64,000 nt of DNA from Dastarcus helophoroides. Its lineage: Eukaryota; Arthropoda; Insecta; Coleoptera; Bothrideridae. Below are positions 31,447-59,800 of this stretch, one piece after another. Location of the stretch: NCBI GenBank assembly GCA_028583605.1, contig CM053330.1, forward strand, positions 17,757,539 to 17,821,538, written 5' to 3'. A program made the position numbers and the translations under genes. Within the stretch, counting starts at the first letter, position 1; each line of letters begins with the position of its first letter. The notes below the pieces were generated by a model that saw only the letters and a program-made list of their open reading frames with translations, did no database searches and was not told the DNA's origin.

Positions 31447-31995
31447 TGATAACGAAGGCTTTCACGGCCAGAGTTAGTACAGGCTATACTTCTTCCGGGA
31501 TTGGACCGCGTCAAAGAACTAAAAGTGTTCGACGTTTCGCCCACCATCGTAGGGGGCTTCTTCAGGAACAAAGAAAAGAAACGATAAATAAAAAGAGAAA
31601 TATAAGGGAATATGCAAAAATGAAATAATGAAAAGGCCAATTTCAAAACATCAGAGCACGGTAACTCACTATGAACACCATACCAGAGGCGAAACTTCTG
31701 AATTGAAAATTGGTACAAAGTGAATTACCGTGCTCTTCTGTCTAAACTTTCTTATCCTTTGTACCAATTCAGGAGAATTTTGCCTCTGGTATGGTGGACA
31801 TATTGAGTTACCGTGCTCTGATGTTTTGAAATTGGCCTTTTCATTCTTTCATTTTTGCATATTTCTTTATATTTCTCTTTTTATTTATTGTTTCTTTTCT
31901 TTGTTCCTGAAGAAGACCCCTACGATGGTGGGCGAAACGTCGAATACTTTTAGTAGTTCTTTGACACGGTCCAATTTCGGAAGAAGTATATCCTA
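31447..31995. mobile_element. Foldback insertion with 12-bp target duplication and hairpin-GAAAC motif (copy c)
   Basis: AACACTTAAATT flanks the element at both sides (31435-31446 and 31996-32007), a clean 12-bp direct repeat. The two halves are long inverted arms sharing GAGCACGGTAA, CATCAGAGCACGG, AAAAGGCCAATTTCAAAACA and CGACGTTTCGCC-type blocks. The motif reads CTGAAGAA, stem GCCC/GGGC, then GAAAC on the minus strand at 31565-31534, and again on the + strand at 31907-31938 with a disturbed stem. The short frames on both strands are mirror artefacts of the palindrome. Confidence 0.8.
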
Positions 31996-32007
31996 AACAC
32001 TTAAATT

Positions 32008-32404
32008 CGTCTTTATAATTTTTGAAAGAAATTTTGATTGAAGAAACTAAAGGAAATCCATTAATAAATACTCACACACTTTTGTGTAATACTTAAATTT
32101 AAAGTCAATATTTTGAAATTAAGAAAATTATAGGAAGTTTGAAATTTTTGTTTTCATAAATTTCGAGAAATTGCGAATGTTTTCTCAAAAATCCGAGTAA
32201 TAATGTCGACATCTTTATTTCTTTTAACTAAAATTTCGAGAAAAAAAGTCAAAATCTTGGGAGTCTTTTAGAAAAGTTAAAGTTATTACATAAATAAAAT
32301 TGGTCAAGTTTTACTTTCAGCTTGAAATTAATATTTTCCAGAAATTGAAGTTTAGAATAAATAGCTCGATTTATCTATTAAAATTCTGAATTTAAACTTG
32401 CATT
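32008..32404. other. A/T-rich degenerate sequence, no gene seen
   Basis: Similar low-complexity words (AAATTTCGAGAAA) before the retrotransposon begins. Nothing coding. Confidence 0.5.
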
Positions 32405-35400
32405 AACAGGTGGTAGACTGGAACTTTCAGTCGTCCGAGGTAGTACCACCCCACGTATCACTAGGAGGCGGTGAAATGATGCTTACATCATGTTTCCGTC
32501 TCTGACATGTGAGTCGGTATCTGCTATTCTTCTTTCCTCATCCTGTCCTTTTCCTTATTTCATTTTTTCATCTACTCTGATTTTTTCTTCTAATTATTAA
32601 AAACAAAGATTATGGATCCTCTTCGTGCAAAAAATTCCGGTCGTAAACTACCTCCCGTTCGCATGTCCTGGTGGAGGGTGTACGAGGGAATCCAAAATCG
32701 ACGGAAAATTTTAATGTACCACGGGCCAAGTTTCTTTCAAACAATTCATTCAAATTTCAATTCTATAACATTCGGGGTCTAAACTCAAATCTAAACTCGG
32801 TTCATCAACACCTTCAAAATGAAAGACCCCATGTGCTGTCTCTGACAGAAACCCAGTCTCCCCATCCATCAATACAGTCCATTTGCTTTGCCCTAACTAC
32901 GACTTGCACACAAAATTTCGACGCAAGAGGGGAATTTGTGCTTTTACGCGAAGCTACCTGTCCTGTTAACGAGAAGAAGCACTGCTATCTGCTGATCATG
33001 ATGTGATTTGTTCACTTTATTTGTATCCAAACGATTTCTCATACAGGCAGCTTTTCTTTTATCTCTCCGTAAGCTTTGATCACCTACAGACGAATTATCC
33101 AAAAGCTGAGGTTGTCTTTCTCGGTGACTTCAATGTACACAACATCCCCTAGTTAAGGTTTTCCTCCCGAACTGACGACGCGGGGAGGGTGGCAGAGGCT
33201 TTCGCCATCACTTGTGGACTATCGCAATTAGTTGAGGAACCCACAAGAATTCCTGATGTAGATACCCATCAACCTACTCTACTCGACCTTTTCCTTATAA
33301 ATTCACCAAATTTGTATAAAATATCTGTGACATCGCCGCTTGGAAATTCGGATCACAAGCTTGTAGTAGCCTCTCGCTCGCTTCATATACCACATCCTTC
33401 CCAGACGTAGTCCCGTAGGGTTTGGCACTTTAACTCCTCAAACTGGGAAGAATTAAGAGACTTCTTTGCATCTTTCCCATGGCAGGAAGTCTGCTTTAAC
33501 TCAGACAACCCTTCCTTAGTCGCCGAATCCATCACGGAAACTGTCCTGATTGGTATGGAATGCTCAATTTCACACTCCCAAAAGAAGTCTGCCTCCAGTA
33601 AATCTTGGTTCAGTAAAAAATGTGCTCGGGCTGTCTCCTGCAAAACTCGCGCATATCGTCGTTGGCGAAATAATCCCTCAATTGAGACTCGGACCATATT
33701 TGTAGATGCACGAAATTCTTGTAAGCAGGTAATTGACGAGGCAAAAGGTGATTTCGATCGTAAAATGCGCCAGAGACTTACCAACTGTCCGAATGGTTCC
33801 AGGTCCTTTTGGGGATTTGCAAAGTCGATTGGAAAGAATTTGACACCCTCAAATTTTCCACCTTTACTCGATGAAAATAACAATATTGCTACTACCTCCA
33901 AGGCTGACATGTTAGCCTTAATGTTTGCTGAAAATTCCAATCTTGATTCTCAAAACGCAGAACCTCCTATTCTTCCTAAGGTTGGCACTTCGATGCCTGA
34001 AGTTGTTTTCAGACAACGCACAATTAGGAAGATTCTCCTTGAGCTCGACACCTCGAAAGCTTGTGGCCTTGATGATATTCCCGCTATTGTTCTTAAGAAG
34101 TACGCTCCAGAGTTGACTCCTGTCCTAAGCAAATTGTTCACACTCTCTTACAACAAAGGTGTATTCCCTAACATCTGGAGCTGCTAGAGTGCAACCTGTC
34201 TCTAAAAAGGGAAAAAGGAATCTGGCTAACAACTATCGCCCTATATCTTTGTTACCCGTTATATCTAAAGTGATGGATCGAGATTTTTAAATATCTGGAG
34301 GAAAATAGATCATCTCCGACAGGCAATACGGTTTTAGACAACAACGTTCCACTGGCGATCTACTGGCATATGTTAATCATATCTATAATTCAACTATGGA
34401 AAAACATGGTGAGGCTAGGATTGTGGCATTGGATATCTCAAAGGCTTTCGACAGAGTCTGGCACCGATCTCTTCTCGCCAAATTAACATCTTATGGTCTT
34501 CCTCCTGGACTCTGTTATTTGATATCCAATTTTCTCGCTGACAGATCTCTTCAGGTAGTCGTCGATGGCATCTCATCCGAGACATTTGCGATTAACGCAG
34601 AGGTGCCTCAGGGGTCTCTTCTGTCTCCTACTCTATTTCTGTTACACATAAACGATGCTCTTAGCTTTAGCTTCCAATCCTATATACAGCTACGCAGATG
34701 ATAGTAACCTTGTGTCATTTTTTTTCTCCGACAAACCATTATCTATCGCTGCTTCAGATCGACTAAGGGAACAGCAGATACAGACGATTAATCGGGATCT
34801 CGAGATTATTCTGGAATGGGGTAAGAACAATTTGGTCGACTTGAACGCTTCAAAAACTCAGGCCGCGGTTTTCTCTAAGAAAACATCAAGGAATAATGCA
34901 ACAAACATACTAATGGACGGTAAAATCCTTCCGATGGAATCTTATCTATCTATCCTAGGAGTGAATGTGAGCACTAACTTCTCTTGGGATAATCATGTGC
35001 GCGCCATTGCCAAATCCGCCTCTCAGAAGCTAGGCTTTCTTTTTAGAGCTAAAAAGTACTTCACATCTCATCAGCTATTAACACTATACAAAGCTCAAGT
35101 TAGGCCAACACTAGAATACTGTTCTCATGTTTGGAGTTCAGCCCCAAAACACACTTTAGCTCTCTTGGATTCAATTCAAAGAAGAGCGATTCGCCTAATT
35201 GATGACGAGAGTCTGACCGATTCTCTCTAAACACTAGAGCACAGGCGTATGGTTGCTGACTTGTCTCTTTTCTACAAGTACTGTCATGGAAGGTGCTCGC
35301 AGGAACTAATAGGATTGATCCCTCAAGGACAAGATTCTTGAGGCGTCCTAGACAGTCGGAGACAGCAAATTCCTGTGCGGTCCAGCTTGACACAGTGAGG

Positions 35401-35612
35401 ACTTCTGTCTACGGGGACTCTTTTTTCTATAGAACTTCCAAGTTATGGAACTTGTTACCGAAAGGAATTTTCCCCAAAAATTAAACCTATCCTTGTTTAA
35501 GAAGGCGATTCATCGCCATCTATCCTTGTTTCCGCATCCTACTCGCAGTGCTTTAAAAGCATAATGGGGTTACCCTTTGCAAGTGGATTAAACTTTAAAA
35601 AAAAAATTATGT
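32405..35612 (+). mobile_element. jockey/CR1-like non-LTR retrotransposon, nearly full length, broken
   Basis: The element starts near 32405 with a G/C-richer leader and ends at about 35600 with an A-run after AGTGGATTAAACTTT. The order is apurinic-type endonuclease, linker, reverse transcriptase, C-terminal domain and poly(A). A 5'-truncated sibling lies at 3078-3224. Local base composition is clearly richer in G+C than the flanking DNA. The clade (jockey or CR1) is inferred from domain order and the C-terminal sequence style. Confidence 0.9.
32671..35490 (+). pseudogene. Endonuclease/reverse transcriptase ORF of the non-LTR element
   Basis: The endonuclease part shows the YNIRGLNSNL start and an LTETQ motif (32761-32860), a frameshift near 32920, GDFNVHN near 33130, and GNSDHKLV near 33345, the SDH motif of the APE fold. 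A TAG interrupts at 33408-33410. The same frame resumes to about 34187, covering the pre-RT region and KACGLDDIPA. The RT continues in shifted frames: NNYRPISLLPV (34230-34262), AFDRVWHRSL (34445-34475), VPQGSLLSPTLF (34602-34640), and the catalytic YADD near 34690. The C-terminal domain runs to about 35230, then stops and frameshifts follow to about 35490. At least five breaks, so it is inactive. RT would copy element RNA at an EN-nicked target. Confidence 0.9.
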
Positions 35613-36559: not shown

Positions 36560-39500
36560 TTAAACAAGTCCAAATTCATGTAGTTCATTTTTCATTTTTT
36601 CGACATTGCCACCCCACATCTGTTCTAAGGGAGGTCTTACTGGACCCATTGGGATTTTAGATATAATAGTCATTGCAGCCTTGAGTGCCGAAACTGCTTC
36701 TCCTAAAAAAAAGAAAACTTCCAATTATTCAAATTTCTGAAAGTAAATATACCTTTAACATTTCGATATTATTTCAAAATGCTAATTTGAAATACATAAA
36801 AAAATTTAACATTGTACCTATTCAGTATCTTTCCAATCAATTAAGGTTACTTTTTTTTATTATTTTTATAAGCAGTGTGTCTCAAAGATCATTTTAAAAT
36901 GTCCATTTTGGAAACTGGGAATTTTTAGAAAAATCGCTTAGAGGTCAATTTTGTTTTGTGGAACATGAACTTTGATGAAATTCGGTTATTACTTTTTAAG
37001 AACAACGACTTTTTATATTGCACCATATGAAAGCTTATGTTTTTCTGTTTAACTTAATGATAACATGCAAGGATTGGTAAAAATTTTTTTTGGAGAAATG
37101 GAAAAAACCGTAGAAAGAGAAACTCAGAATTTACAATTTTTTTCGATATTTTTCCAAAATTTTTCCTACCAACCTTATAATGTTGCATACCAAATTAATC
37201 AAAAAGTTCAAATTGGAAATTTTGAGAAGGCAGTTTAAATTTCAAAAGAAATGTATTTAAATTTAATCACAAAATTTTGAATATTTGATTTTTCTCAGCA
37301 CTTCTAGAAAAAGTCCCAATTTTGGGAAGATTTTTATTCATTTTATAAAATTTTGAAGTTTTTGGAAAATTCCGAAATCGAATTTTATTTCACCTTCGAC
37401 TTCAAACTTAACCTTTTCCAAAAATATTGCGAGAAAAAAAGTAAACATTTAAAAAAAATCGAGTGTTTTTACTATTTTTGGATTTTTTCAAAAAAATTGA
37501 CCGATCTGTAAAATGTTGCCTTATTTGTCTAACACTTCGAATATTCGAGTTTAATATCAAATTTTCTGAAACAGAAATTGAAAATTTTAGAATCCTACAT
37601 TTTAAGAATTCTTTTTTATTATGAAATTTGTTTGAAATGTTTAATTTTTTCTCACATTACTGTCTAAACTTGTAACTTTAATTTTTTTTCTCTCTAAAAT
37701 TTCGACTTAAAACTTCAAATTTATTTTCGCACATTTTAAGTTGGTTTTTTTAACATTTCGACCATAATCATAAAGTTTAGACTTTTTCCCAAAGTTTTAA
37801 AATTAAACTTTACATAATGAGGGAACTGTTTTACCACAATGTTATGTTTAAATTATAAACCCAAAATATTTTTACTGTAAATTTGGACCTTTTTTTAGTT
37901 TTCAGTTTCAACTGGAAAATTAAACTTCTTTCTAAGATGTCAACATTAAAAACTAAATTCTAAGTTAAATCTTAAATTTGTTTGATACATTTTGAATTTT
38001 CAAAAAATTTGATTCTATTTCTAGAAATTATAAGTTATATGGAAAATTTTTAATTTTTGCCGAGTCGAAGTTTTGACTATTGGGCCGAAACCGATATTTC
38101 AATCAGTCTACAGCCTCTAAGAGTAAATTACTTACCATGTGAATATATTCGACTAAGAGCTTTTGATAAAACAGCCTGCGTTTTTTGTGCGGTGAGTATC
38201 TCACCTTTGGTGGCAGAAAAACATATAGATTCCACCAATTTAGGAAAGATGTTTGCACTGTTGCCCATAATACAAGAAAATCCACTGGCTGCAGCACCCA
38301 AAATGCACTAAAAAGCATAAATATAAGTATACAGTACTGAATGAGCCTACTTTATTTAACCTCATCTGTTCCCATAAATACTGTAAATTGTTCTTGATTT
38401 ACGTGCAAACTGGAAAGTGAATGTTGTAAATCATTAGTACTGTGGATCAAACCAACAAATGAATCGATTTCACCAGTAATATCAAGTAAAAATGAAGTCA
38501 TATCAACTGGAAAAAATATTCAGTTATTAACAAAAAAATGAAATAGGAATCTCACTTACTGTTCAGATTCGTATAACCAGGATTGTGATGATATATTATG
38601 GGTATTTCTTGACTCACTTCTGAGACTAGTTTAATATACTTAATCAGGTCCAAATGATTTTTAGGCCTATTATACATGTCTGGTAAAACTACAATTGCAC
38701 CTACTTTTATTCGTTCTGCATGAATAATCTACAATCGATTAATTAAATAGAAATATTCATTTTTAAAAAAAATATTACCAATTCCATGACATCTTTCAGG
38801 GGTGCCCCTCCTACTTGTACCATTAAGAATTGTCCATTTTTCTTACACTGATGATTCCATTCCTCAACCAACATTTTTCTTTCAGATATTGTTAGGGACA
38901 TACCTTCTCCCATAATATCGTTTACTGCAATTTAATGAAACAAAAAACTGATGTAATTGACCTAAGATGAAATACATACCTAAAATCCCTTTAATTCCGC
39001 AAGCTTTTAAAAAACCCGCATAGCTGGGTATAATTTTGTAATTTATATCCATAGTCCTAAAAATCAAAATGTTTTAATTTTGAAAAAAAAAAAAAATGTT
39101 ACAGACAATCGAAGTAAAGTGGTTTTCAAAAGTAAGTTACAAAAGCATATATATTTTCAAATTTTTTAATTCTTTCCCTTTTTCATAAAATGTCGACTTT
39201 ACCCATAAAATCTAGAATTTTTTTCTAATAATTTTGAACGAACAGCGAATTTAAAAGTAAAAACTTTGAGAAAAATGCCATATAGTCAGATTTAACATTG
39301 AAATGTTCCTGCTAAAAAATTGAAATTGCGAGAGAACACTTGGACTTAGTAGAACTTGTACTTACTTTGTTTTGCAAAATGGTGTAAAAACTGGACAAAG
39401 TAGTCCACGAAATCGGAACTTTTTCTAAAAAAAATGTTCAGTGTACATGGAAATAATTTCAGCATTTTAATAACTACCTGAACTGTCAAAGTTGGAATGG

Positions 39501-39986
39501 TGTGTTGCTGATGCTTTTTTGACGACATATGTTTGAGAATTTCAGATTTCCCACATTTGTAATCTTTTTTACAAAACTTACAATAAAAGTAGATATCCCC
39601 ATGTATACTTGGAGATAACCATGGCTTAAAACTAGGAACACTATCCCATTTCTTCTGATACTTCTGCAAATATTTCTAAATTCAATGTTTATAATACACT
39701 GTTATTTGTACAATAGTCAAGGTACCTTTCTCGTAGATGCGCTGCTAGGTGTGTTACTTGTTGCTTTCTTCTTATTTGCAAGAGGTTCGTCGTCTGAGTC
39801 TTTACTTATATCATTATCTTCCGGTTCTGAAGCACTATCAGAGTCAGGAGTAAAAACTGAAAATAAATCTTTAGCGGTCTTCGGGTCTGCCTTGGATTTA
39901 TCGCCTTCTTCCTCTTCTTCTTCTTCTTGAAGAATAAAAATTTCGTTCTGCTCTTGTTTTATTGTTGATGAATTGTCCTTTTCCAT
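36560..39986 (-). CDS. BED-like zinc finger fused to an N-acetylneuraminate-lyase-fold pseudoenzyme (9 exons, 456 aa)
   Basis: Exons in transcript order: 39986-39726, 39675-39478, 39424-39366, 39056-38980, 38924-38779, 38728-38560, 38506-38361, 38307-38136, 36702-36560; all GT-AG, 1371 nt, phases consistent. Residues 1-87 are acidic and Ser-rich with a run of Glu and a small KKK cluster. Residues 88-153 form a finger with C119, C122, H136, H142 (C-x2-C-x13-H-x5-H) preceded by W97, F103 and W106, as in BED or hAT-derived fingers, which bind DNA. Residues 154-456 follow the NAL/DHDPS barrel end to end (RGLLCPVFTPF, MGEGMSLTISER, SKIPMGPVRPPL). The active site is gone: DIM replaces the GTT/GST triad (201-203), His294 replaces the Tyr, Ile324 replaces the Schiff-base Lys. 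The codon just upstream of exon 3 is an in-frame TAG, so the barrel needs the upstream exons. Lyase activity is very unlikely; the true role is unknown. Confidence 0.88.
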
Positions 39987-41782
39987 ATTTTTTACACTTA
40001 CTAAAAATTACTATACGTTTATTGTTTATTTTTGCAAAGGCTTCGCTTCCGTCAGTTGTCAAATTGTCATAAGAGCATCATTGTAAAATTAGACCTACTG
40101 ATTCAGGGTCAAAAGAGCTACCGAAAACCACAGAGAATTCCAAAATAAAGAACGTTTTCTGCGTGAAATAGTAAGTATTTCAGTAAGCCATTTTCACTCC
40201 ATTTCCCGCCTAAAATTGAAATTTGTAAATATACAGGTGTTTTAAATTTACTGGTGGAGTCCGTAATCACAAATTCCTTACAACATTCTAAAAGGAAAAC
40301 TTTGAAACAATTATATCGATTGTGCAACCGTTATCGAGCCTGCGCTGTTGAACTATGCATTATGAAAAATTATGATAATCCCATTGATTTACTAAACTTT
40401 GATCTTTAAGGTTAAAATTTCGAAGTAAAGCCGAAATGTTATTAGTTTATTAGCCAAACAAAATTGCCATTTCTACAAATTATTTTTTAAAAATTTGAAT
40501 TTACAGTCGAATTTTGAGAAAAAACTTCGAACTTCGTCTAATCTTCCTGGGTGTCGTATTTTCTACAAGACGAATTCAAAAGTTTCCAGAAAAAATTACA
40601 CCTTTTAAAAATTAAAATGAATATTTGTGTGAGAAAAAAAGTTAAATGTCATAAATAAAATGACATTTCGACTCCTAAACGCAAAAAAATTGAAAAAAAT
40701 CCGCACTTTCTTAACTCAAAATTTTGGAAAAAGATGAAATTAAAAAAAATCAAGATGCTATGTTAAATATTAAGTATTGAAAGTTAAAATTGGGGATGTT
40801 CAGAAAAAGTTACCATTTCAAGTCTACTTTTAAGTTTACTTTAGCTTAGAATAATAGGAGAATATTATACACTTTTTTTTTGAAATTTTGGTCCTTAAAT
40901 TTCAAGTTTGTAGAACGGATTCAAAATATGTTTATTTTAAACGAAATTTTGAAATAAAAAATCATAACCTCGATTTAACGTCCACATTTTAGTAAATATA
41001 AAAAATCGGAAAAGTTTGATAAAAATCGAAATGTTAATGGAAACATCGTGAAAAAATCAAGTTTTAACATACAAGCCTAGAAATAGGACGAAGTTTGGAA
41101 TTTAAACCCGGATTTCCAGAAGAAAAGGAAAAAAAAGGGATTAAAGTTGAATATTTGGACAGAAAATTGAAAAATTGTTGAACGAAAAAACGAAACTTTG
41201 ATTTCTAACCACAAAAATTAATTACTGTCGGAATTTTGAGAAAGAAGTAAAAATTTTTAGTTTAAGCTAGAAAGTTTGAGAAAAAAATATAAATTTTCAG
41301 GCAAATTCGAACAAGCTTCCCTAACTTCCATGAAGAACATTTCACTGGTTGATAGTGTATTGCTTTAAAGAAAACTCCTCTCACTAGAAATTTTTCATCA
41401 TGTAAATGTTAAATTAATGACTAAAAAAAGATTTTCCCCCTGTAAATAACAATTCTCACTAATATGAAGTTAAATTAACGACATACGAGAAATTTGAAAA
41501 GGTATAAAAATTATGGTATATTATTACCTAAAAACTAGTTCCAAAACGATAGAAATACCGTTTTAACAGTAGACCTGGCAACACTGCATATTGGAGTCAC
41601 AGAATACCTTCAAAAGAGGAGTAAAGTTTGTAGTTCTCATTTGGTGGTAGTTCTTATGAGATCTCTTGAATAGGTTATAAGTTCCAATAATATAACCTTA
41701 TTTTATATATAACCTAAACAGGCTCAAGTAATCATAACGTGGAATTCAATATTTAACTTAACTGATATTGCAAAGAGCGAAA
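39987..41782. other. Divergent intergenic region between the lyase-like gene and POLR1C
   Basis: It carries both 5' flanks. 39987-40380 and 41330-41782 are unremarkable A/T-rich sequence likely to include the promoters; 40400-41320 is degenerate A-rich repeat. No TATA box was assigned and no other gene was seen. Confidence 0.45.
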
Positions 41783-44700
41783 ATGGATGATGAAAAACCA
41801 AGAATTATTTTAGGGGAACATAAAATTACTCAGGTGAGCCAATTTCCGGTGGTATCTTCCTTAGTTTTGTTAATTTTCATTTTATCAGAATAAACCTTTG
41901 GGGCCCACTGTCTTGGACGAAGAATGGAGTTTTAAGAAATTTAAAAAGAGATTCCGTGTGGTAGTTGTTAGATACGAGAATTATGAACTGGAATTTGATT
42001 TAATTGGTATTCACCCATTTTTGGCCAACACTTTTCGCAGATTGATGTTAAGTGAAGTGCCTAGTATGGCCATTGAAAAAGTACATATTTTAAACAATAC
42101 ATCAATTATTCAGGATGAAATTCTTGCCCATCGATTGGGTTTGATTCCATTGAGGGCAGATCCAAGATTGTTTGAATATAAACTGGATCGTAAGTATATT
42201 TTTCAGATATGTTGGGTCAGTGTGATTATGTATTTTAACATATTTTTCATTGAAAATAGCATGGAACTTAATGTCAAAGTCTATATTAATCTAATGAAAT
42301 GAAAGATTCCAATACATTTAGTGAAGTTTTAAGGTTAAAAACTCAAAATTTAAAAGGGAAGGAACAAGTTGGTAACCGTAATTATGTATTCAGTAATTTT
42401 TGACGCCCTAAATCTTGGAACACAACATTTCGATTTTTTTCTAAGAATTAATTTCTAAGTTTAAACTTGGACTTTTACTTGCATTTTGAAATGATTCCCA
42501 TTTTTGCCTCAAAATTTTATCTCTTCAACTGCCAAGAAATATTTTTTTTTAATTGTGAACCATTTCTTAAAATGTTATCTCAAGACGCACGAATTTGACT
42601 ACATTGCATTTCACTTTTTCCATGGAATTTTGACTAAACTAGAGAATTTGACCTAAAGCTCTTAATTTTGAATTCTTTTTCGGTTTTAATCAAAATTTTC
42701 GCTTTCATATCAAAATTTTGAATTTTCATTTCAAAATTTTGAGAATAACTAATTTCATTTATAAATTCCGATATTTTTTTTTAATTTGTGTACCACATTT
42801 CTAAGTTAATTTATTAACTTATGAAAGTGACAGCTTTTAACTCGAAACTTGTTAGAAAAAAATTGTTTACTAAAGTTTTTATAATTTGAACTTCACAAAA
42901 TTTCGATTTTAAAGACGAAATTTCAATAAAGCATTGAACTAAACACTGTGGCTTGTGATTAAGTCCAAAGAAGGTTTCACCCCTTTACCACATCGGCAAT
43001 TAAATAATTAATTACGCGATACGTATTTCGCCAGCAGAAGTGGCATTTTCAAGCGAACTAATCCAAAAAGATTAGCAAACGATGCATCGACGTCATTTGC
43101 ATTGAGATTCAAATCGATACGTATCTCCAGATGACGTCGATGCATCTTTTGCTAATCTTTTTGGATTAGTTGGCTTGAAAATGCCAGTTCTGCTGGCGAA
43201 ATACGTATCGCGTAATTAATTATTTAATTGCCGATGTGGTAAAGGGGTGAAACCTTCTTTGGACGAAATTTCAAGCAAAATTTTGTTTAGACAATTTGAA
43301 TTTTTATCAGAAATTTATACTTTTTAAGTTGTGGTTTCAATAATAAAAACGTAAATTAAGTATTTTTCATTTAAATTAGAAATTTCAGATTTTAGCACTT
43401 TCTTAAAAACATGAAGTCAAATTTTTGAAGCGTAAGTTGAAATTACGAATTTTAAAAAATAACACTGTTGAAATTAGTCAAAGATTCTAAAAAAATTGAT
43501 ATTTCTTAAATTAAGAGGTTTTTTTTTGGAAATTTCTACTATAAGTTCTAAAAATCCTCTTTTAAACTAAAAATTCGCTGAATTAACGTTTCGAAACCTT
43601 GAGAATTTTCCTCTTAATTTTGACTTGACTATCAAAGTAGGATTTTGACCCGCAATTTTGAAAACATTTTTTAAAAATATAATTTTAATATAATTTAATA
43701 TTATATATTATTAATTTAATATACCTAATTTTAAACTAAACATTTTAAAAAAATTGTTCTGAGTTCTTTCTCGAAATTGTGACTGTAAACTCGAAAATTC
43801 GGGAAAAAATTTGTTTAGAAATTTCGTGATTTTTCGGAAAAAGTTTAGTTAGTTTAGTAGAAAACAATCTGAATTTAAAGTTTTCTTTTTTAATTTGAAT
43901 CTTGTAACATTGCACCGGAAATGAACACAACTTTCTCATTTTAAATAGAACACCCTATGTATTTTTACATTTTTGGATTCCTTGTTAAAAATGAATATGA
44001 ATTTATTAAGACGACATAGGCCCTTAGTTGAACCGTTTTCGCGTAATTTAATTTTTTTGGTTAAATTTGACGATTTCAGAGCTTGACGCCATTAACGATA
44101 TTTTCCAAACGCAATGACTCAGAGTTGTGTGGCATACGGTTTTGGATTCAGGAAAAAATGGAGTATTTGTTTACGTCTTTGATGTTAGATTTCTTAAATT
44201 TCTTCACATCCGTCCACTCAATTCTTCAGTTGTTCAAACTTGCATAACTTAATTTTTTCAAATGGAACCACCTATCTTGGATTATCTTATCGGATGCGAA
44301 ATTAAATTACCTTTTTTTTGGTACCAGGTATTGCCAATAATTTTTGAGAAATTTAGAATTTTGTAAAAATTTTAATTAGTTTCGTATTATCGCGTTAGCC
44401 CTGGATGTCGCGGTTTTGTTTCGTCTCGTTTGTCCGGCAATAACTGACAGTTTATCTCATTGTTGTCGCGAGGTCTTGGTATTAGTACTGAAAGACAATG
44501 TTTTCTCAAGAAGTATTGGTCGATATGGTTTACGCCTTGGGCACTGCTGACAGAAATCCATTTCTTGCCTCAAGAATTTATGCCCAACGTTTTGCCGATC
44601 GGAGACATCCAAATTCAGCGGCATTCGCTAAATTGAGAGAGAGGTTTGAGCGAACTGGTAGTACGAAATACGAGAAAAAGGAGCGTAGAAAACCAACGAC

Positions 44701-47363
44701 GCATGAAGAAAACCAAGTTTTAATAGCGGCTGCTGTTGTCCAAGATCCGCATTTAAGTACCAGAATAATAGGCACGGAATTACAAATAAGTCAAACCTCG
44801 GTTTCACGAATCTTGCGTAAAAATAAGTTTCATCCGTATCGTGTCCAGCTAGTACAGGAACTCAATCAAGCTGATTTCAACAACGGAATGCAGTTTTGTG
44901 AGTGGGCGTTACGAAAACTACAAGAACAAAATGACTTTTTGGACAATGTACTATTTACCGACGAATGTACATTTCATAAGAACGGCTTCGTGGGAAGACA
45001 CAACTGAAAATCCTCATTGGATAAGCATCAGCATAGGTGGTCTCTGAATGTTTGGGGTGGTGTCATAGGAAGATTTGTTGTCGAACCACACTTCTTCAAT
45101 GAACATTTGAATGCCAACAATTACTTGCATTTTTTGCCAAATCAATTGCCCGAAATGATAGACAATTTGCCTCTTGCTGTCGTGCGGCAAATGTGATTCC
45201 AACATGATGGGGCACCGGCACATTATGGAAGGGATGTAAAGGAGTTCCTCAATACACAATTCCCTAACAAGTGGATAGGAAGAGGAGGTCCAGTGGTATG
45301 GCCCGCAAGATCACCGGATTTAACTAAGCCAGACTTTTTCTTGTGGGGTCATGTTAAGCAAGTTGTGTACCAGGAACCACCAACTACCCGAGAAGGTATG
45401 ATGGAAAGGGTTCGTGTTGCTTTCCAAAATATCAATGAAAACGTCTTGGTGGATGTGAACAATTCTTTGCTACAGAGACTGTGCATTTGCCATCGTAAAG
45501 CTGGTGGTTATGTTGAACATTTAATTTAATGTTATTATTACCATTGTTTATGTATTCTTCTTAATATTTGTTTCAACTTACTGTTACCGATTTGTTTATT
45601 GTTTATTTACTTTCTTTAATGCTTTACACTGAAATCCAATGATGATTTTCAGTATCGTGGTGTATCGTTTCCTTCCCACGAAGAGGTTCTTAAAAAATGT
45701 TTGTACATTCGTCAGTAAATAGTACAATGTCCGAAACGGTCATTTTGTTCATGCAGATTATGTAACGTGCATTTACCCAACTGCATCGATTGTTAGTCAG
45801 CTTGATTGAGTTCTTGCACTAGCTAGGTGTGATACGGATGAAACTTGTTTTTACACAACAATCATGAAACCGATTTTTAGCTTATTTGTAATGGCACACT
45901 TATTCTTCTGGTTCTTAAGTGCGGATATTGGACAGCAGCAGCCACTACTGAAACTTGGTTTTCTTCATGCGCCGTTGGTTTTCTACGCTCTTTTTTCTCG
46001 TATTCTGTACTTCCAGTTAGCTACAACCTGAAGAATGCCACTAAATTTGAACATCTCTGGTCGACAAACCGTTGGGCATACCTACATGTTACAAACTCTA
46101 ATAAAATTGTTTATTTTTTTGAATTTTAATTATTTTAGTTCATAATTAATATTTAGGCCATTGTGTTTGCCTTACTCTAACAATTGACCTAGTTTTCAAA
46201 AAATAATTTTCTTTAAAAAATGTAAAGTGTAAACCACATCAACCGATTCTTGTTCGAAAAACATTTTCTGTAATTTGCAGGACAAACGAGACGAAACAAA
46301 ACCGCGACATCCAGGGCTAACGCGATAATACGAAATTAAAATTTTTACAAAATTCTAAATTTCTCAAAAATTATTGGACGGAGGTGGCAATACCTGGTAC
46401 CAATAAGATAACGAACGATACGCCTACCAAAGACCGATTCCCGCTTAGTGACTCGCCCTGTATTCGAAATTTTTATTGTAATTTCGACTTTTGAAATCTT
46501 TTATATTAAAGTTTGGAAACTTATATTTTCAATGAATAAATATTTTTAGCTTCTGCTGAGCCAGGTGAACAAGATACACTCGAATTTGAATTGAAAGTAA
46601 AATGTACCTATAATAAAGATGGAAACAAAATTTCATCCCGAGCTGAAGATATGTACAAAAATAGCAACGGTAAAATACCATTTATTAAATAATTCACCTA
46701 GCAGTGACTAAATAGATGCAATTTTAGTTTATTCTAAACAAATAAAATGGATCCCAGTTGGAAATCAAAAAGATAAGTTGAAAGAGGATGATGTAGGTCC
46801 CATTGAGTCCGACATTTTAATCGCAAAAATGAGACCAGGTCATGAACTAGATTTAAAGCTGTTTGCAGTGAAAAGTTGCGGAAAGGATCATGCCAAATTT
46901 TCACCTGTGGGTAAGTGTTATAACGTCTGTAAATTGCGATAAAAAAAATCAAATTTGTTTGCAGCTACAGCATTTTATAGGATGTTGCCAGAGATCCAAT
47001 TAACTAGGGAAGTGGAAGGAGAGGCAGCTGAACGATTGCAGCGATGTTTTTCACCTGGCGTAATAGGAATTAAGCACGACAATGGACGCAAAATCGCCGT
47101 TGTGAATGATGCTCGATATGACACTAGTAGTCGCAATGTTTTTCGCTATGAAGACCTTAAAGATTCCGTAATTATAAGCAAAGTTCAGGATCACTTAATA
47201 TGTAAGTTTTAGCTAATTTGAACATTTAACATAACTAATGATTTATGCAGTTTCAGTTGAGTCTGTTGGTGCCTTGAAACCAGATGTCATTTTTGTAGAA
47301 GCAGTTAAAATATTAAAAAGCAAATGTTTGAGTCTTTTAGAAGAATTACATTCACATTCTTAA
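41783..47363 (+). CDS. POLR1C: RNA polymerases I and III subunit RPAC1 (6 exons, 334 aa)
   Basis: Alpha-like subunit (yeast AC40) that pairs with RPAC2 to nucleate assembly of RNA polymerases I and III in the nucleus. Exons: 41783-41833, 41889-42189, 46550-46669, 46728-46910, 46965-47201, 47251-47363; GT-AG throughout, 1005 nt, phases agree. Recognisable blocks: [20 protein letters not shown] (alpha-motif dimerisation helix), the [12 protein letters not shown] block, [46 protein letters not shown], and the C-terminal [19 protein letters not shown]. Length is close to human RPAC1 (346). Intron 2 (42190-46549, 4.4 kb) is enlarged by a foldback insertion and a DD41D transposon; the other introns are 50-60 bp. 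The coding sequence is intact. Confidence 0.97.
42927..43261. mobile_element. Foldback insertion with 13-bp target duplication and hairpin-GAAA motif (copy d), in POLR1C intron 2
   Basis: GACGAAATTTCAA flanks both sides (42914-42926 and 43262-43274). The inverted arms run from about 42963 to 43110 and 43115 to 43261, nearly identical, around a short centre. The + strand at 43175-43202 reads TTGAAAAT, stem GCCAG/CTGGC with loop TTCTG, then GAAAT; the minus strand 43052-43025 has the same with one stem change. Non-coding. Confidence 0.8.
44498..45529 (+). pseudogene. DD41D transposase pseudogene, best-preserved copy
   Basis: [15 protein letters not shown] is followed by a helix-turn-helix ([15 protein letters not shown]), then [12 protein letters not shown] and LFTDECTFH (first Asp) in an open frame to 45007. 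Two small deletions after GFVGRHN and near SISIGG shift the frame. The rest is readable: [16 protein letters not shown], an in-frame TGA at the position after RQM (about 45194), [10 protein letters not shown] (second Asp), and [13 protein letters not shown] (third Asp, 41 residues further), ending EHLI at 45529. Inactive. Confidence 0.88.
45650..46275 (-). pseudogene. Degenerate inverted N-terminal half of the DD41D transposase
   Basis: Minus-strand DNA similarity to 11280-11840 is clear at the nucleotide level (GTACATTCGTCAGTAAATAG, CATTTTGTTCATGCAG, CTGAAACTTGGTTTTCTTCA), but stops, indels and a foreign A/T-rich insert near 46090-46230 destroy any frame. Confidence 0.75.
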
Positions 47364-50800: not shown

Positions 50801-53800
50801 AATTTCTAAAAAATTAATAACTTAAATAATGTCTACAATGGTTCGCTCCATTTATGGTACAGCATAAAAGGTGAAATGATTTGTAAGATGGAGATGAGCA
50901 AAAAGATGTCAAAGAGGTCAGATATTTCTATCATAGAGCAATCATTGTGTGTTCGGGATTACCTAGCGTTCGTGTTTACCCTACTTTCCCCTAAGTAAAA
51001 ATGTGCTAACATTTCTTAAAAAAAAAGATTAATATTTCCAAAAAAAATGTGGCTTTAATATTTCAACTTGACACATTTTGCCTTTTCTAAAATTTTCTCG
51101 CAAAAATTCAACTTTAACGAAATAGGTATGAAGCTAAATCTAGAACTACTTTTATAATTGGAAGTTTTTTTTCAAAATCTTATGTTTTTAAATAAAATGT
51201 AGACTTAAAAAGTAAGGTTTCGGCTAGGCCAAACCGAAACTGGGTTCGTTCGGTCGGTTTCTAATTAAAACTTTTAATGATTGTCACAACTGGCATTAAA
51301 AGTTGTAAAACAAAGTAATACTTACAGGAATAGGTTGTGGGTCACTTAAATGTGGCCCAAGGTGTTGGAAAATGTCAGGTAGGTATTCAGGTACATCATA
51401 TGGGTCTGAACTAATAAAGGCACAGAGACCCAAAACACCAGCATGTCTTATCCTAAGATTTGTTTCATTAGAACACTTATTTTTCATTTTGGTTTTAGCC
51501 TTTTGTTTAAAGTGGTTCTGTAATGAAAAGAACATAAAATTCTGATTAAAAACAAACTAATAATGAAAAAAATTACCAATAAATCCATTGGCGCTGGGAT
51601 AAACTGACAGTGAATTAATCCACTCAAAACTTTACTAGCCCCTGTTCTGACTTCAGGTTTTGGGTCTTCCAGTAAATTTAAAACAATATTTTGAACCTGC
51701 AATTTTACATAAAAATATATAAAAAGGGAATAAATAGAAAAGTTGTACTTACGTCTCCGATCCAATCTTTTTGAGATATTATTAAAGGTCTATTGTGGAA
51801 TACAAAGCAATTCAAAAAATCTGTTAAAACCAGCCGGGCTGACCACATTGGACAATCTGCTATGCTATGAAAGACAGACAAAATGTGCGGTATGTGACGT
51901 TCAGTAACCAGTGATTGAGCTAATAAGGCTAATAAATTTGAGCATAACGGGCCCAATTCATCATCAACATCATTACTTTGGAGAACTGCGGCTAATGGTA
52001 ATAAGTTGTAAAACTCTAGCGGAATATTAAGCGTTCCACGACACACAACCGTTGAGGTAACATTTTTGGCAACTACAAATATAATCATGATTTGCATTAT
52101 GTATTACCTTAAGAATAAACAAAGTAGAATATACAGTGTTACTGATTATGGATGATCCGATTTCAACCCTAAATATATCAGTAGCCATAAGAGATATTGA
52201 CAAAAATTAAAAATTGTTAAATAATACTTTGTGCACATTACATTTTGTCATTCATGTATGTATAAAATCCACCCCATAAATAGCTTGATGCCAAATTGAA
52301 TTTAAATACACTTAAAAGTGCTCGAGCTATCACTACCCGATATTTTAGTGAAGCACACCCACTTATAATCACAAATATTGGGTAGTGATAGCTCAAGCAC
52401 TTTTAAGTGTATTTAAATTAAATTTGGCATCAACCTATCTATGGGGTGGATTTTATATATACTTGAATGACAAAATTTAATGTGAACAAAGTATTATTTA
52501 ACAGTCTTTTACTTTTTGTTTATATCTCTTATATTATCTTATGTTTTTTACTGAGTTCATGAAAGATTTTTCTACATACTATTAATTGTAAGTTTAATAA
52601 AACACAAAAATGAAAAAAAAAGTGCTAACCTAATTTTGACAATTTTCAAATTATTAAATTTAAAAATGAACCAAACAGTTTTTTAATACTTACATATTTT
52701 AAACAGACGCATTGCTTTTTCCCTATCTTGTTCACTATTCAAAGTTATTAATTGTAAAGTATCACAGGTATTTTCTACATCCATTTCATTGTCTTTCTTT
52801 TTTACACTTTCGTAAACCACTTTCTTTAAAACATCGCTGTACAGAGTATTTAATATCGGTTTATATTCATCATAAAAGTCTTTAACTTTAGGACACTGCA
52901 TTTCGCTTTGTCCAGAAAATTGTATATCTTTGGTTAAAATTACTTTAAGTGCGCTACTGATTTTTTCTCGTATATTTTGGAAGGGATGCGTGAGATATTG
53001 TTTGAGGTAGTCTAGTAATCTAACAAATAATTCATAATTCCTCCAGGTTTGCTGATTTATAGCATTCACCAGCAGATTCATTCTTCCACAGGCTATGAAA
53101 GAAGTAGGATCTGCTAAGGGATCTTCCATTAAATACTCTAGTAGCCAGTGATGTCTATTTGGATCTCTGGAATTTAAGGCCATAGCTAAACATATGCTCC
53201 AATCTGATGATGTTTCAGATAACATATTGATAGAGGCAGTGTGAATTATTGGAATAAGTTCTGACCACATTGTTTGTACTTTTTCAAAAGGCCAGTGTTT
53301 TGATCCTCTTATTAGACCGCTTATTAATTCTGCTGCACATCTTTGACTAGCTTCTTGTTTGTCTGCCACTAATTCTTGAAGGTGGGGCAAGAATAGATTA
53401 AGAACTTCGTCCTCCATTAATTTAAAAAGATTCTAAAACAAAAATGATATGCAGAGAACAAATTTTCAATATTACTACTATTTCACCACGATTCAGAGAA
53501 ATCTCAAAATTGGAAAATATACAGGGCGATTCAAAATTATCTTTACAGATTTCATGAATAAAATGGAAAATTCTTATTAATAACGGTTCTTGGGGCCTCA
53601 TAACGGGGGCAGAGGGTGAATTGTTTTTTAAAAAAATTAATGTTGTAATGGTTCCTAAACGCCTGGAGCTTACTTTAGGAAATATGGGTTATCCATAAAT
53701 TACGTCACATATGAAGGGATAGGAAGAGAGTCAATTTTTGTTGTCAAAACTTATTGGAATCAGTCAGTGGCGTATTCTCCCTGAAAGCTAGGGAAGTTCC

Positions 53801-56800
53801 TAGCTTTAAAATGAAGTTGCAAAATAAAAAAATACATACTAATATCTTTTTATTTTGAAACCTTCTTTCCAGGCGAGCTCTATCAATCACATTCATTTAC
53901 TGTACAAAACCATACCTCCAATGATTAACGCCATCCGCCGAAACGCTTATAACAAAACTATATATCGCACCGAATACTTTCAATAAGCTGTCGGAACACA
54001 TTACAGTTTTTCATTGAAATTTAATGGAAAATGTGCTTGTACCGGCTAAACGTCAACTGATGATTCAGTTTGTGGTATTTGTTGTTCAGAAACTGATTAT
54101 GAGATCAATTATGATGCGAATGTTTTAAGTAGTATCTACTAAATACTTATTAACGGATTATTTGTAAAATAGTGGCACTTGACAAATAAAAATTCAGTTA
54201 ATTTACCGCAGGAGTAAGCTGACGACAGATAAGCTAAAAGTATGGAGGGGCTAGCTACTGCGGTTGGCGCAACTTCAGGCTCAGACAAGATCAGATTTAT
54301 GTAAGTACAGTGAAAATGAATTAGAAACTTTAAATGTTGAAAAAAATATCATTATTTTAAAAGGTAGGCGAACTCCTGCGGTTGTACATTTAGTAACGCA
54401 GACAGTTTTCCGGTTGGAAATGCCAAATGTAATTAAGCATTACCAACCCGAAAACTGTAACAATAAATGTGAATGGCCCAAAAGGTGTAATACAAAATCT
54501 CTTTTATTATGTTGGTCGTATCTCCTGTTCTCAAACGAAAATAATTTATGAAATATAAATGGATTTTATAATTAATATCTTGATTATTTCCATTTTCCTA
54601 CATTATGATCCAAACTTTGAAGTGATATAAAACTCATCTTGCATGTGGAAATCTATACTAAGATGTGAGCCGGATCAAACTTTTCCCCAAATTCTTAAGT
54701 TGTGTGATTTATTTACGTAAGTGCTTCTGCAGAACGTAGTTTTCCTCCCTAAAACGGATTAAGTAAGTTGTTATAAATTCTGCTGAACAAGAAAGTTTTT
54801 CAAGTTTAGCGATGCAATATCCATTATTATCCTGATCAGCTTCCCCATTTATAAGAGGCATGTCACGCCACTGGGATAAGTATAATTATAGAACACCTTT
54901 TTATTTGATCGCATTTATTGGGGCAGCATAATTATTGAATATGCTCTAATGTTACCCATTTATATACCTATGGATAGAACCCACAATATAATTTAAAAAA
55001 AAACGCGAGATCAGCAGCGAGGTTCAAACTCGGACTCCGCCACGCAAAGTATTCTCAAAATTTATTTATACAATATTTTGATCTACTGAAGTTAAGCTTC
55101 CCAAATACACGCAGATCGAGGTCAGAGCGCACTTGGAAAGTGGTACAATATGTTTGGGTGCCGCAGCTCCTGACTCATGTCTTTTCTGCGGATTTTAAAT
55201 TTTGTTGTTCCCTGTTGGGTTGAGACAATTAAGTAAGTATTTAAAATGTTTAATAATTTTTAGAAGGAAAAATCGGTTGAAAAGTTAACGCGGCGCGCCA
55301 TCTCAGAAATTTTGTGGTAGTTTGATTGGGTTAGCGATAAATAATTGTAGGCGTGAGTTTTTTTTTTATTTTGGGGACGCATAGTATAGATTCTAAACCA
55401 CTGGAGCACTCCAGCTTATCCTCTTGTAAGCTAAACTCGCCTGATAATCTAACCCTACCTTTGAAGTTAAATCGAATATGCGAAAATGTGAATACTATAA
55501 TTGTTTAAATTGTGTTTTAATTTGATTATTATTATTCCTATTCGTTCCGTAAACTAAATCTGACTACATCAGAAAAGAAAAAACGCTGCAGGCGTTGCAA
55601 AGATGGCATGCGACTTGCAAGATTAAAATAGAAATCAAGACGCTTCATACGTACATAATTTCGCTTGCCCCTTTGCGAATGACTAGTAACATTTGGCCGA
55701 GAGTGTGGCCACGCTGCTATATTTTTAAATGAAACTTGGTTGATATTAGAGACCTGCACGAGTAAGTACAAATGTAATCGGATTATAATCGCCGATTATT
55801 TTTTACGAGTATGTAATCGGGAAATTGGCATCGTCGCATCGCAGCATCGTTGGTATCGTATCGAATATACTCATTTGTAATAGTCCACATGTGACATGAC
55901 TTTCAAAAATATTTGTCAAATATCCATTCTGTCAAATGTTAATTTAACCAAATTTATTTTTAATCTTATAATTGATTTATCGCCTGGATCATGTTTTATT
56001 GTTGTTTTTGCTTTTATATTCTTCTTTGTTTGCAGATGTATTCATTTTGCAGTGCTATTAGTTATAAATATGTCAAGATAATATTATATGTGTTCTCCTT
56101 CATTTTAACGATGCCGATTACATAATCGGACGCGATGTCGATTACTACTCATACTCGTCTCATGACATCACGATTACTTTAATCGGCATCGTTGTACTCG
56201 TCAAACGAGCATCTTGTAGGTGTAATCGCCCGATGCCTACTCACTCGTGCAGATCTCCACTAGCTACCAAAATATATGGACATTTTAGGTTTAGTTTCAG
56301 AACAATTAAATTACTTCATATTCAATAACACCAGGAAAAAATTTATCACTATTATTTCCTAGTTTTGAGTTTTCACTTCAAATTGTACAATATGTGACGT
56401 CACACCAGGGGAGGAGGAGGTAATACAAATGTGACCACCTGTGGCAAAGACGGGGTGGGGGATTCAAAGTCATGAAATTCGTGGCGCAATTTACGGATGG
56501 TCCCTTTTTTCTCAAAAGAGTTTTTACTGATTAAATTTTTTTTTTTAAATCCCAATTTAAACTTAAATTTTGAAGTTTCGGCAAAGGCGAAATTTCAGCT
56601 TATTATTGGCCGACTAAAATTGCATTTTATTAACCAAAACTGACCGAAACAGAAACCCAAACTACGGTCTCTATAATTAATTTAATTGAAGAAAAATGTT
56701 AAAATGTAAATAAGCTCGAAAATTTCCACAAAATCCAAAATTTCAATAATCAAGTCAACATTTTCAAAATTAAGTGAACATTTCGAAAAAGAGAGGAAAT

Positions 56801-59800
56801 TTCTCGTACGAAGTCGAAATTTTGAGGAAAAAGGAAAAGTTGCGAATTTGAGATCAAAATATTAAAAAAAAATTAAATTTTACTAAAAAAGAGGAAGCGA
56901 ATCGTTCGAGATTTCGACAGAAAATTTAGAACTTTTGTAACAAATTATTATTTGAACTTAGACAAGTCCAAAATTAAAAATCAAAAGTGTTTACTTTGAT
57001 TTTTGAGAAAACCATCTTTAAGGTAAATTATTTCCGAGTTACAAAGCTTTGGGCCATAATCAGGGCTTCGAACCGGAGCTGAATCAAAAATCGGAAACCG
57101 AAACCGTTAGTTTTATCGGAACGAAAACCGGAACAAAACCGGAAAAAAATAACAGTTATTTCGGTTCGTTGAATTTGTACATTCTTAAAATAATTTTTAT
57201 TTTTTATGTTATCCTAAAATTTGAACTTTTTTTTTATAAATTTTGATTTCGAAATTTCAAATTTTCTTGAAATTTCTCCTTCAAATTTCACTTTAATTCC
57301 AATTTTCCATTTGTTTCTTCAAATTCCAAATTCTAATGATATTTTTACGATGCCGACTTCCTAATACTTCCCAAAATTCAAGGATTTGACTTTTTTCTCA
57401 AAATTTCCGATACAATTTCACCATTTTCAATTTGTCTAGAAATTTGGAACCTAGTCAAAATTTCAAGAAAAAATACATTTATATTCCAATTTAAAGTAGG
57501 GATCTTGAAGTTGAGGTCGAAATTTTGAGAGTAAACTTGAAACGGTGACATTTTAGAAAATATCTAATTTAAATTTCCAATTTTTTAGCTGGTTTTGTTT
57601 AGGCTAAATTTGACTTTTTGCTTAAATTTTCTACTTCAACCTTAAAGATGCGTTTTTTTCCAGATTTATTTTTTTGAATTTAGAAATAAAAATTAAGGAT
57701 TTTCTAAAATATTGTTTTCAGGATAATCCTGTTTTAAACTCAAAATTTCGACTTCAATCTCCTAATTTCGAGTCCTGGAAATTTTGATCTTTTGATCAAA
57801 AAGTCGAATATTCGAGGTTTTAACAAAATTTCAAGTATAAATTTTTAATTTTCAATTTCTTTAAATTGAAATGTCTATATTTAAAGAATAAACTCAACAT
57901 GCCAGGAAACAGGGTTAGGTTAAAAAATACAACAAATACAAGTTTAGATTTGGAACTTCAAAAGAAACAAGTTAAATGATCTAAAAAAGCTAAATTAAAC
58001 AAAAAAAACTTTTTGAACACTTTTACTTTTTCTGGAAAATTTAAAGTTTTCAGCAACATTTTCAGAAAGAAAAATGAATATTTGGGTTTAAGGTCAATAT
58101 TTCTAAATTAGTATAGAAATATTGAGTGAATGTGAAGTTTTTTTTAAAATTTGAACTATTTCCTTAAAATCTTAAAATTTTTTAATTTTGTTTTTTACTA
58201 CAAAGTTCTAGAAAACAAAGTCGAAATAATAAAAATCAATTTCTTTGGAAAAAGTAAGTCACAATCAAAACTTCGATAGAAAACCAAAATTATAAAAAAA
58301 AGTATCTTACATCTTCGAAATTAATAGCCAAATTTAGCATATTCCGGAAATGTTGAAATTTTGGGCAAATAATTTAAGAATTTTATGAATATTCCGAGTT
58401 TGAAATTTTTAAATCTGAATATTCCGATTTAATTTTTTTATAAAGTTCGGGTTTTTCTTGAAATTTGAACTCAAAAGAAATCCAGAATTTAGTTTCAGCT
58501 TGAAATTTTTAAACTCGGAAAATCCAGAAATATTTTCTCCAAATTTTAAGCAATACCAGAGTAATATGTGTAATATTAAAGAAAGAACATTTCCTAAATT
58601 ATGCTAGAAAATCAATTTTTAATTCAAATAAAACCTTTTAAAAAAGTATCAAATGAGCCGTCCGGAACTGACCTGAAAACCGGAAAAAACCTCTATTATT
58701 GCCGAATGAAAACCGAACGGAACCGATATGATTTTTTTCCGGAACGAAAATCGAAAACCGGAACGAAAAAAAATAGTGATTCGAAGCTCTGGCCATAACT
58801 GATTTATTATAAGATATTTTGACACTATTAATAATAATAATAATAATTTATTCCACATTCTTAATATAAAGAGAATACAAAACACAAAAACTACAGAAAT
58901 TAAATACTAAACAATTATTTATATACTAATCATTGGTTATAATTAAAATATGCAAAAGGAACTGAAAACACAATTAGTGATATAGTTCAGTCCCCAAAAA
59001 AGGGAAAAGAAAAAAAAGAAAAAAAAAGGACAAAGATAACAACTATAATTACCAATTAAACTGTATACTGTCGTGGTATTCTTTGATTAATTATTTAACT
59101 ATAAATAAAATTAAAAAATTAAGGACAGGAAGAAATAAAATACAGATATTTACAACGCCAGGATTTTAAACCTTTTCAGCTAAAAACATTTTTCTTACTG
59201 CTACTTTAAATAATTTAAGATTTAAGTTTTTTAGACGGGATGGTACAGCATTGTATAGAATATAAAAATTAAACGTAAACGACTTTTGAAACAGAGAAAT
59301 TTTGTAAGAAGGTGGTGAAATTTGACCCCTAAATCTTAAATTTAATGTATGCACATCCGTTCTGTATTTGATTTTAGCAGTTAGATAACTGGGTGTATCA
59401 TTAATTTGCAAACTGAGAGTATAACATGCGTCTTTGCTTCATATTTAGCCAATTTGCATCTTTCAATTTAAATGAAACGGGTTGATATTTTCTAATGCCA
59501 TATATAAATCTTAGGCAGGATTTTTGTACTTTTTGTATTTTATTAACATATTCTTTATCAAGACATGGACCATACACCACATCGCTGAAATTAAAATGAC
59601 TTGAAACCAAACTATCAGCAAGTAACTTTTTTAACTGTTGTGACAAAAAATGTCGTTGCGGATATATAATATATTCAAGCATATATTTTTAAACTTAATT
59701 TTCTTAAGAGGATAAAGCATAACTAAAATCACGAATGCAATAAGATAAAAATAAATAATAAATTCTTTACGAATAATAGCACAAATAACAAGAGCACTGA

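Follow-up and report, generated by a model that had tools for sequence, protein, structure and literature searches.

The window analysed here, a 64,000-nucleotide stretch of the genome of the beetle Dastarcus helophoroides (contig CM053330.1, positions 17,757,539 to 17,821,538 of the forward strand), carries on its minus strand a gene in which a C2H2 zinc finger precedes a barrel of the N-acetylneuraminate lyase (NAL) family. The barrel fold appears complete although the residues used by NAL enzymes for catalysis have been replaced, and the same architecture was found in relatives from other beetles.

Structure of the finger-NAL gene

Base-level re-cutting of nine minus-strand exons (39986..36560 of the window) gave a protein of 456 aa followed by a stop codon. 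All eight introns have GT..AG ends and the exon phases agree throughout. Exon 1 (39726..39986) holds the start codon, with stops in frame upstream of the ATG, and encodes an acidic Ser/Glu-rich region and the KTAKDLF motif. Exon 2 (39478..39675) encodes the finger, C-x2-C-x13-H-x5-H, with an N-terminal helix in the structure model; introns 1 and 2 are both phase 0, and this exon of 198 nt is thus 0-0. The barrel begins with exon 3 (39366..39424; KKFRFRGLLCPVFTPF), whose acceptor position, phase, and length are those of a NAL paralogue of the same contig (paralogue A, see below), and continues with exon 4 (38980..39056; 77 nt versus 71 nt in paralogue A). Exon 5 (38779..38924) encodes D201-I-M-G-E in place of the enzyme motif G-T-T/S-G-E, exon 6 (38560..38728) His294 in place of the catalytic tyrosine, and exon 7 (38361..38506) Ile324 in place of the Schiff-base lysine, with Asp351-Glu352 retained. 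Exon 8 (38136..38307) also belongs to the barrel, and exon 9 (36560..36702) encodes its C-terminus and the stop codon. Two details may be modelled differently: an alternative in-frame acceptor is possible 12 nt inside exon 2 (TTTGCAG/AAG), and the donor of exon 7, GTTAAA, seems weak. A tblastn search of the window, for which the protein and six of its relatives served as queries, turned up no second NAL, the sole stray match lying at 4985-5203 (E 0.71).

Relatives with the same architecture

A search with the whole protein returned 40 matches, of which 28 (P0001-P0023 and P0025-P0029) hold the tail, the finger, and the barrel; together with the window protein they form a set of 29 finger proteins. 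P0001 aligned to 95% of the window protein (72% identity, E 1.9e-214) and P0002 to 93% (73% identity, E 5.7e-212), and because both align nearly full-length at 72-73% identity the 456-aa join is not a chance reading. The closest named relative is that of the ladybird Coccinella septempunctata (73% identity). All 22 of the 28 relatives that carry a species name come from beetles, which we take to be, with two of the lineages looked up, a ladybird, longhorns, seed and leaf beetles, weevils, bark beetles, darkling beetles, and fireflies. Three matches with related features were left out of the set: P0024, which has the finger and lacks its N-terminus and the start of the barrel, P0030, whose model omits the finger exon along with some of the barrel, and P0034, whose barrel is mispredicted. 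Mean pairwise identity among the 29 proteins was highest for the finger (72%), followed by the barrel (62%), and lowest for the N-terminal tail (25%), and the KTAKDLF pattern is present in 20 of them. No description of the architecture, or of a link from sugar metabolism to nuclear control in beetles, was seen among the open-access titles and abstracts surveyed.

The gene model was read from DNA and could in principle merge two adjacent genes. The same domain order is, however, found in all 28 relatives. Six of them are known from Logan contigs alone (P0001, P0010, P0020, P0027, P0028, and P0029) and are unbroken frames of 446-485 aa, the longest contigs being of 1,534-2,710 bases; we infer that these frames fit spliced cDNA. 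The genome also yielded no second finger exon at E<=1e-3. An artefact of this kind is therefore extremely unlikely, and we rejected it on the splice structure together with the relatives of identical domain order. The nine-exon join proposed in the first-pass annotation is thus borne out by splice ends, phases, and close relatives, as is its claim that the finger and the barrel stand in one protein; their order recurs in other beetles.

The barrel retains its fold and has lost the catalytic residues

Residues 158-439 match the PF00701 profile with 85.9 bits (cut-off 22.1, E 2.6e-24), and the predicted structure is a complete (beta/alpha)8 barrel. NAL (NPL/NanA, for example human 6arh) has this same barrel and is the top match both in sequence and in fold; the window protein differs from it in lacking the Schiff-base lysine, the catalytic tyrosine, and GTTGE, and in adding a zinc finger and an acidic tail. 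The finger proteins were compared with 121 other NALs, namely P0031-P0033 and 118 new matches from the best 120 of 578 listed, which were ordered by their similarity to an unfused NAL and are accordingly biased to intact enzymes; a number of them carry no species name. The site of the Schiff-base lysine is Ile in 29/29 finger proteins and Lys in 121/121 of the comparison NALs. The site of the catalytic tyrosine is His in 28/29 (Tyr in P0029) and Tyr in all 121. In the GXXGE substrate motif, given for NAL in PMC6213981, the Ser/Thr residues are changed to give D-I-M-G-E, with the Asp (D201) in 29/29; the GTTGE stretch is absent from seven of the 121. Position 352 is Glu in every finger protein and Gln in 86 of the 121. 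The excluded P0024 and P0030 likewise have Ile at the lysine site, and Lys is present in P0035-P0040, of bacterial or unknown origin, which were not counted in the 121.

Judged by its residues, the barrel would no longer be an enzyme and looks catalytically dead; an active NAL was rejected as a reading on the loss of the catalytic residues. According to the titles of PDB entries 6rd1 and 4imf, bacterial NAL lysine mutants have been solved with sialic acid, and since such structures exist the loss of the lysine need not abolish binding.

The zinc finger

The finger claimed in the first-pass annotation is C119-x2-C122-x13-H136-x5-H142, and its four presumed metal ligands are invariant in the 29 proteins. 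BED fingers are spaced C-x2-C-xn-H-x3-5-[HC], and fingers of the U1/matrin type have H-x5-H. The spacing agrees with the BED pattern, and the H-x5-H of the U1/matrin type occurs in 29/29 finger proteins. The best structure matches to the finger, weak and below significance, were chains of spliceosome complexes, and ZBED chains ranked lower; the finger was modelled with a pLDDT (predicted local distance difference test) of 70. The VIA structure list for the whole model contained barrel matches only, and a PDB sequence search with the finger reached E 0.15 at best. With no Pfam finger model above cut-off and the ZBED chains in lower places, the label BED-like that was first given to the finger is not favoured over U1/matrin-type.

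The finger had also been thought to derive from a transposon. Searched against the genome it comes from (538.9 Mb in 50 contigs; 10 candidates scored), the finger exon gave a single match at E<=1e-3, which leaves that origin unsupported, while an old domestication stays compatible. A protein search with the finger region, whose reach was restricted by protein length and by its use of exact words, recovered only orthologues (8 matches of 9 candidates), and no finger relative was confirmed in viral contigs. A simple pattern like that of a nuclear localization signal (NLS), K[KR]x[KR], is present in 28/29 finger proteins.

Origin from a duplicated NAL gene with introns

In a tree of 58 rows, 22 of them finger rows, chosen from 159 sequences, the finger proteins formed one clade with support 100/100, recovered in 100% of 200 bootstrap trees, and Lys-bearing beetle NALs fell outside it. 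The deep forks of this tree do not resolve, its outgroup rows are long, and the branch of P0029 is long too. The finger form and the Lys form were both found in six named species (Cylas, Zophobas, Gonioctena, Anoplophora, Aquatica, and Abscondita); in the two fireflies and Cylas they probably lie on one contig, judged by contigs of equal size.

Two further NAL genes were found on the contig of the window, about 0.8 Mb off. Paralogue A (L016:7958-8163 with L013:7187-8590) could be followed to its end starting at the first barrel exon, and paralogue B (L018:9893 onward, with L019 and L014) was read in pieces. Their fragments contain GTSGE or GTTGE, YYHIP, and GIKFTS, that is, the catalytic residues are retained. 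The 301 aa read of paralogue A are identical to the window protein in 113 of 305 alignment columns. The start phases of the barrel exons agree in 7/7 cases between the two genes, six of the seven starts fall in the same column (the second, next to a gap, is two columns off), and the lengths are equal in all cases but one (59, 146, 169, 146, 172, and 143 nt). The shared phases and lengths therefore show that the pseudoenzyme comes from a duplicated intron-bearing NAL gene.

The first-pass annotation had seen in the first barrel exon, which lacks a start codon and follows a TAG in frame, a proof of the fusion. The observation holds, the TAG being that of the acceptor of a phase-0 intron. The argument was rejected, because the first barrel exons of paralogues A and B likewise lie at a phase-0 acceptor and lack an ATG, so that a missing start codon is no special sign of fusion. 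In the stretches examined, neither A nor B yielded its start-codon exon, and queries with the ZSWIM3_N and THAP front parts taken from four proteins picked up no convincing DNA-binding exon ahead of the two genes. Foreign first exons could readily dock at the phase-0 first barrel intron, which also accounts for the start-less barrel exon without further assumption.

Other NAL fusions

From the best 120 of 578 matches to an unfused NAL, eight proteins were tested with Pfam. ZSWIM3_N was found together with a NAL barrel in P0135, P0139, P0142, and P0158; this combination recurs in fireflies (P0139 and P0158), in a longhorn (P0142), and in P0135 (longest contig 1,906 bases). THAP was found with the barrel in P0155 (Onthophagus), a Tc5-type helix-turn-helix (HTH) in P0050 (Monomorium), and psq in P0071 (Vollenhovia). 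In P0140, a candidate partial ZSWIM3_N fusion, Pfam showed the barrel only. The catalytic Lys and Tyr are kept in 7/7 of these other fusions. Like the window protein, the ZSWIM3_N-NAL proteins have a predicted DNA-binding-type domain ahead of the barrel; they differ in that this domain is unrelated to the finger and that the catalytic pair is kept. The predicted THAP, Tc5 HTH, and psq fusions likewise combine a DNA-binding-type domain with a NAL barrel and differ by their Lys and Tyr; each is a single gene model and may be a misprediction. NAL had been regarded as a stand-alone enzyme, which is not the rule, since at least seven other NAL proteins carry DNA-binding-type domains. A recurrent fusion of NAL with DNA-binding domains is possible.

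Neighbourhood in the window

The surroundings of the gene were read by eye. The start of a gene resembling RPAC1/POLR1C, an RNA polymerase subunit, lies at about 41780-42200 on the plus strand, divergent from the finger-NAL gene, with the two starts about 1.8 kb apart. Just downstream of the 3' end of the finger-NAL gene are broken endonuclease/reverse-transcriptase frames like those of a LINE (long interspersed nuclear element), of jockey type (32400-35600, plus strand). Transposase-like frames at 4520-5260 (plus), 11068-11640 (minus), and 44492-45007 (plus) all contain LFTDECTFH, and the first two also SPDLT..DFFLWG. At about 31530-31950, GACGTTTCGCCCACCATCGTAGGGG and its near reverse complement stand about 400 bases apart, an arrangement like that of the termini of a small repeat element. 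Frames similar to the proteasome activator PSME4/PA200 occupy about 51700-61100 on the minus strand.

Proposed function

We lean towards the view that the protein is a beetle NAL pseudoenzyme paralogue with a finger, most likely a nuclear regulator that binds nucleic acid. An intron-bearing NAL gene was duplicated, at the latest before the split of Elateroidea and Cucujiformia, and one copy has two exons, for the acidic/basic tail and the C2H2 finger, upstream of the phase-0 first barrel intron. The Lys, the Tyr, and the Gly-Thr-Thr pocket are gone from this copy, a loss that is visible in its sequence. The acidic/basic tail and the NLS-like pattern of 28/29 proteins suggest a nuclear location, and the invariance of the finger suggests that it binds DNA or RNA. 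The barrel, from the habit of the family, is probably still a tetramer and would multiply the fingers; it may sense a sugar or another small molecule rather than cleave it. The residues of the NAL paralogues suggest that the enzyme role was left to them. Gal3 of yeast and other enzyme paralogues have become regulators: Gal3 works alike, as a duplicated metabolic enzyme that has lost its activity and may signal, and differs in its fold and in having a chain without a zinc finger.

Several observations weigh against this proposal. The window protein is the one member of the set without the K[KR]x[KR] pattern. No Pfam finger model scored above cut-off for it, a null that is no proof against a BED or matrin finger, and H-x5-H fingers may instead bind RNA or protein. 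The pair of Thr residues that holds the carboxylate is gone as well, which casts doubt on intact sialic acid as a ligand. Finally, the deep forks of the tree do not tell a duplication of beetle age from an older one.

Other readings of the same protein were weighed. The barrel could be a mere ligand-free scaffold by which the finger oligomerizes, as its fold is complete despite the lost catalytic residues and NAL enzymes are tetramers according to PMC6213981. A bare scaffold would not lead one to expect that the substituted pocket residues are themselves conserved (D201 and I324 in 29/29, H294 in 28/29), nor that E352 is Glu in every finger protein where other NALs mostly have Gln. These conserved substitutions, with E352, indicate a pocket that was re-used rather than decayed, and we regard the scaffold as possible, though on the unlikely side. 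The same changed and conserved pocket would suit an enzyme that works through a different, non-Schiff-base chemistry; the loss also extends to the Tyr and the Thr pair, however, and we know of no class I aldolase relative that works without the lysine, so we hold this to be highly improbable. If the finger is of U1/matrin type and binds RNA, the protein would work on RNA and not on DNA. The matches to spliceosome chains that support this are all below significance and come from a finger model with a pLDDT of only 70, and we find it rather doubtful.

The proposal of a nuclear regulator may be carried further, in a form that we offer very tentatively and think unlikely as a whole. Insects would repeatedly have made one-chain regulators that sense metabolites, by placing a C2H2, ZSWIM3_N/FAR1-like, THAP, Tc5 HTH, or psq domain before a NAL barrel through the phase-0 first intron. 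The finger form of beetles would be the fully committed sensor, in which the barrel, having no Lys, would bind a keto-acid or an amino sugar uncut and thereby gate the finger.

Many such beetle proteins are named "N-acetylneuraminate lyase" in the databases, yet by their residues they should not be lyases. With a finger copy devoid of catalysis and NAL copies with intact residues in one genome, the family would offer a clean case of a change from enzyme to regulator, and the other NAL fusions suggest a barrel that readily lends itself to this. The finger-NAL protein also offers a testable link that may lead from sugar metabolism to nuclear control in beetles.
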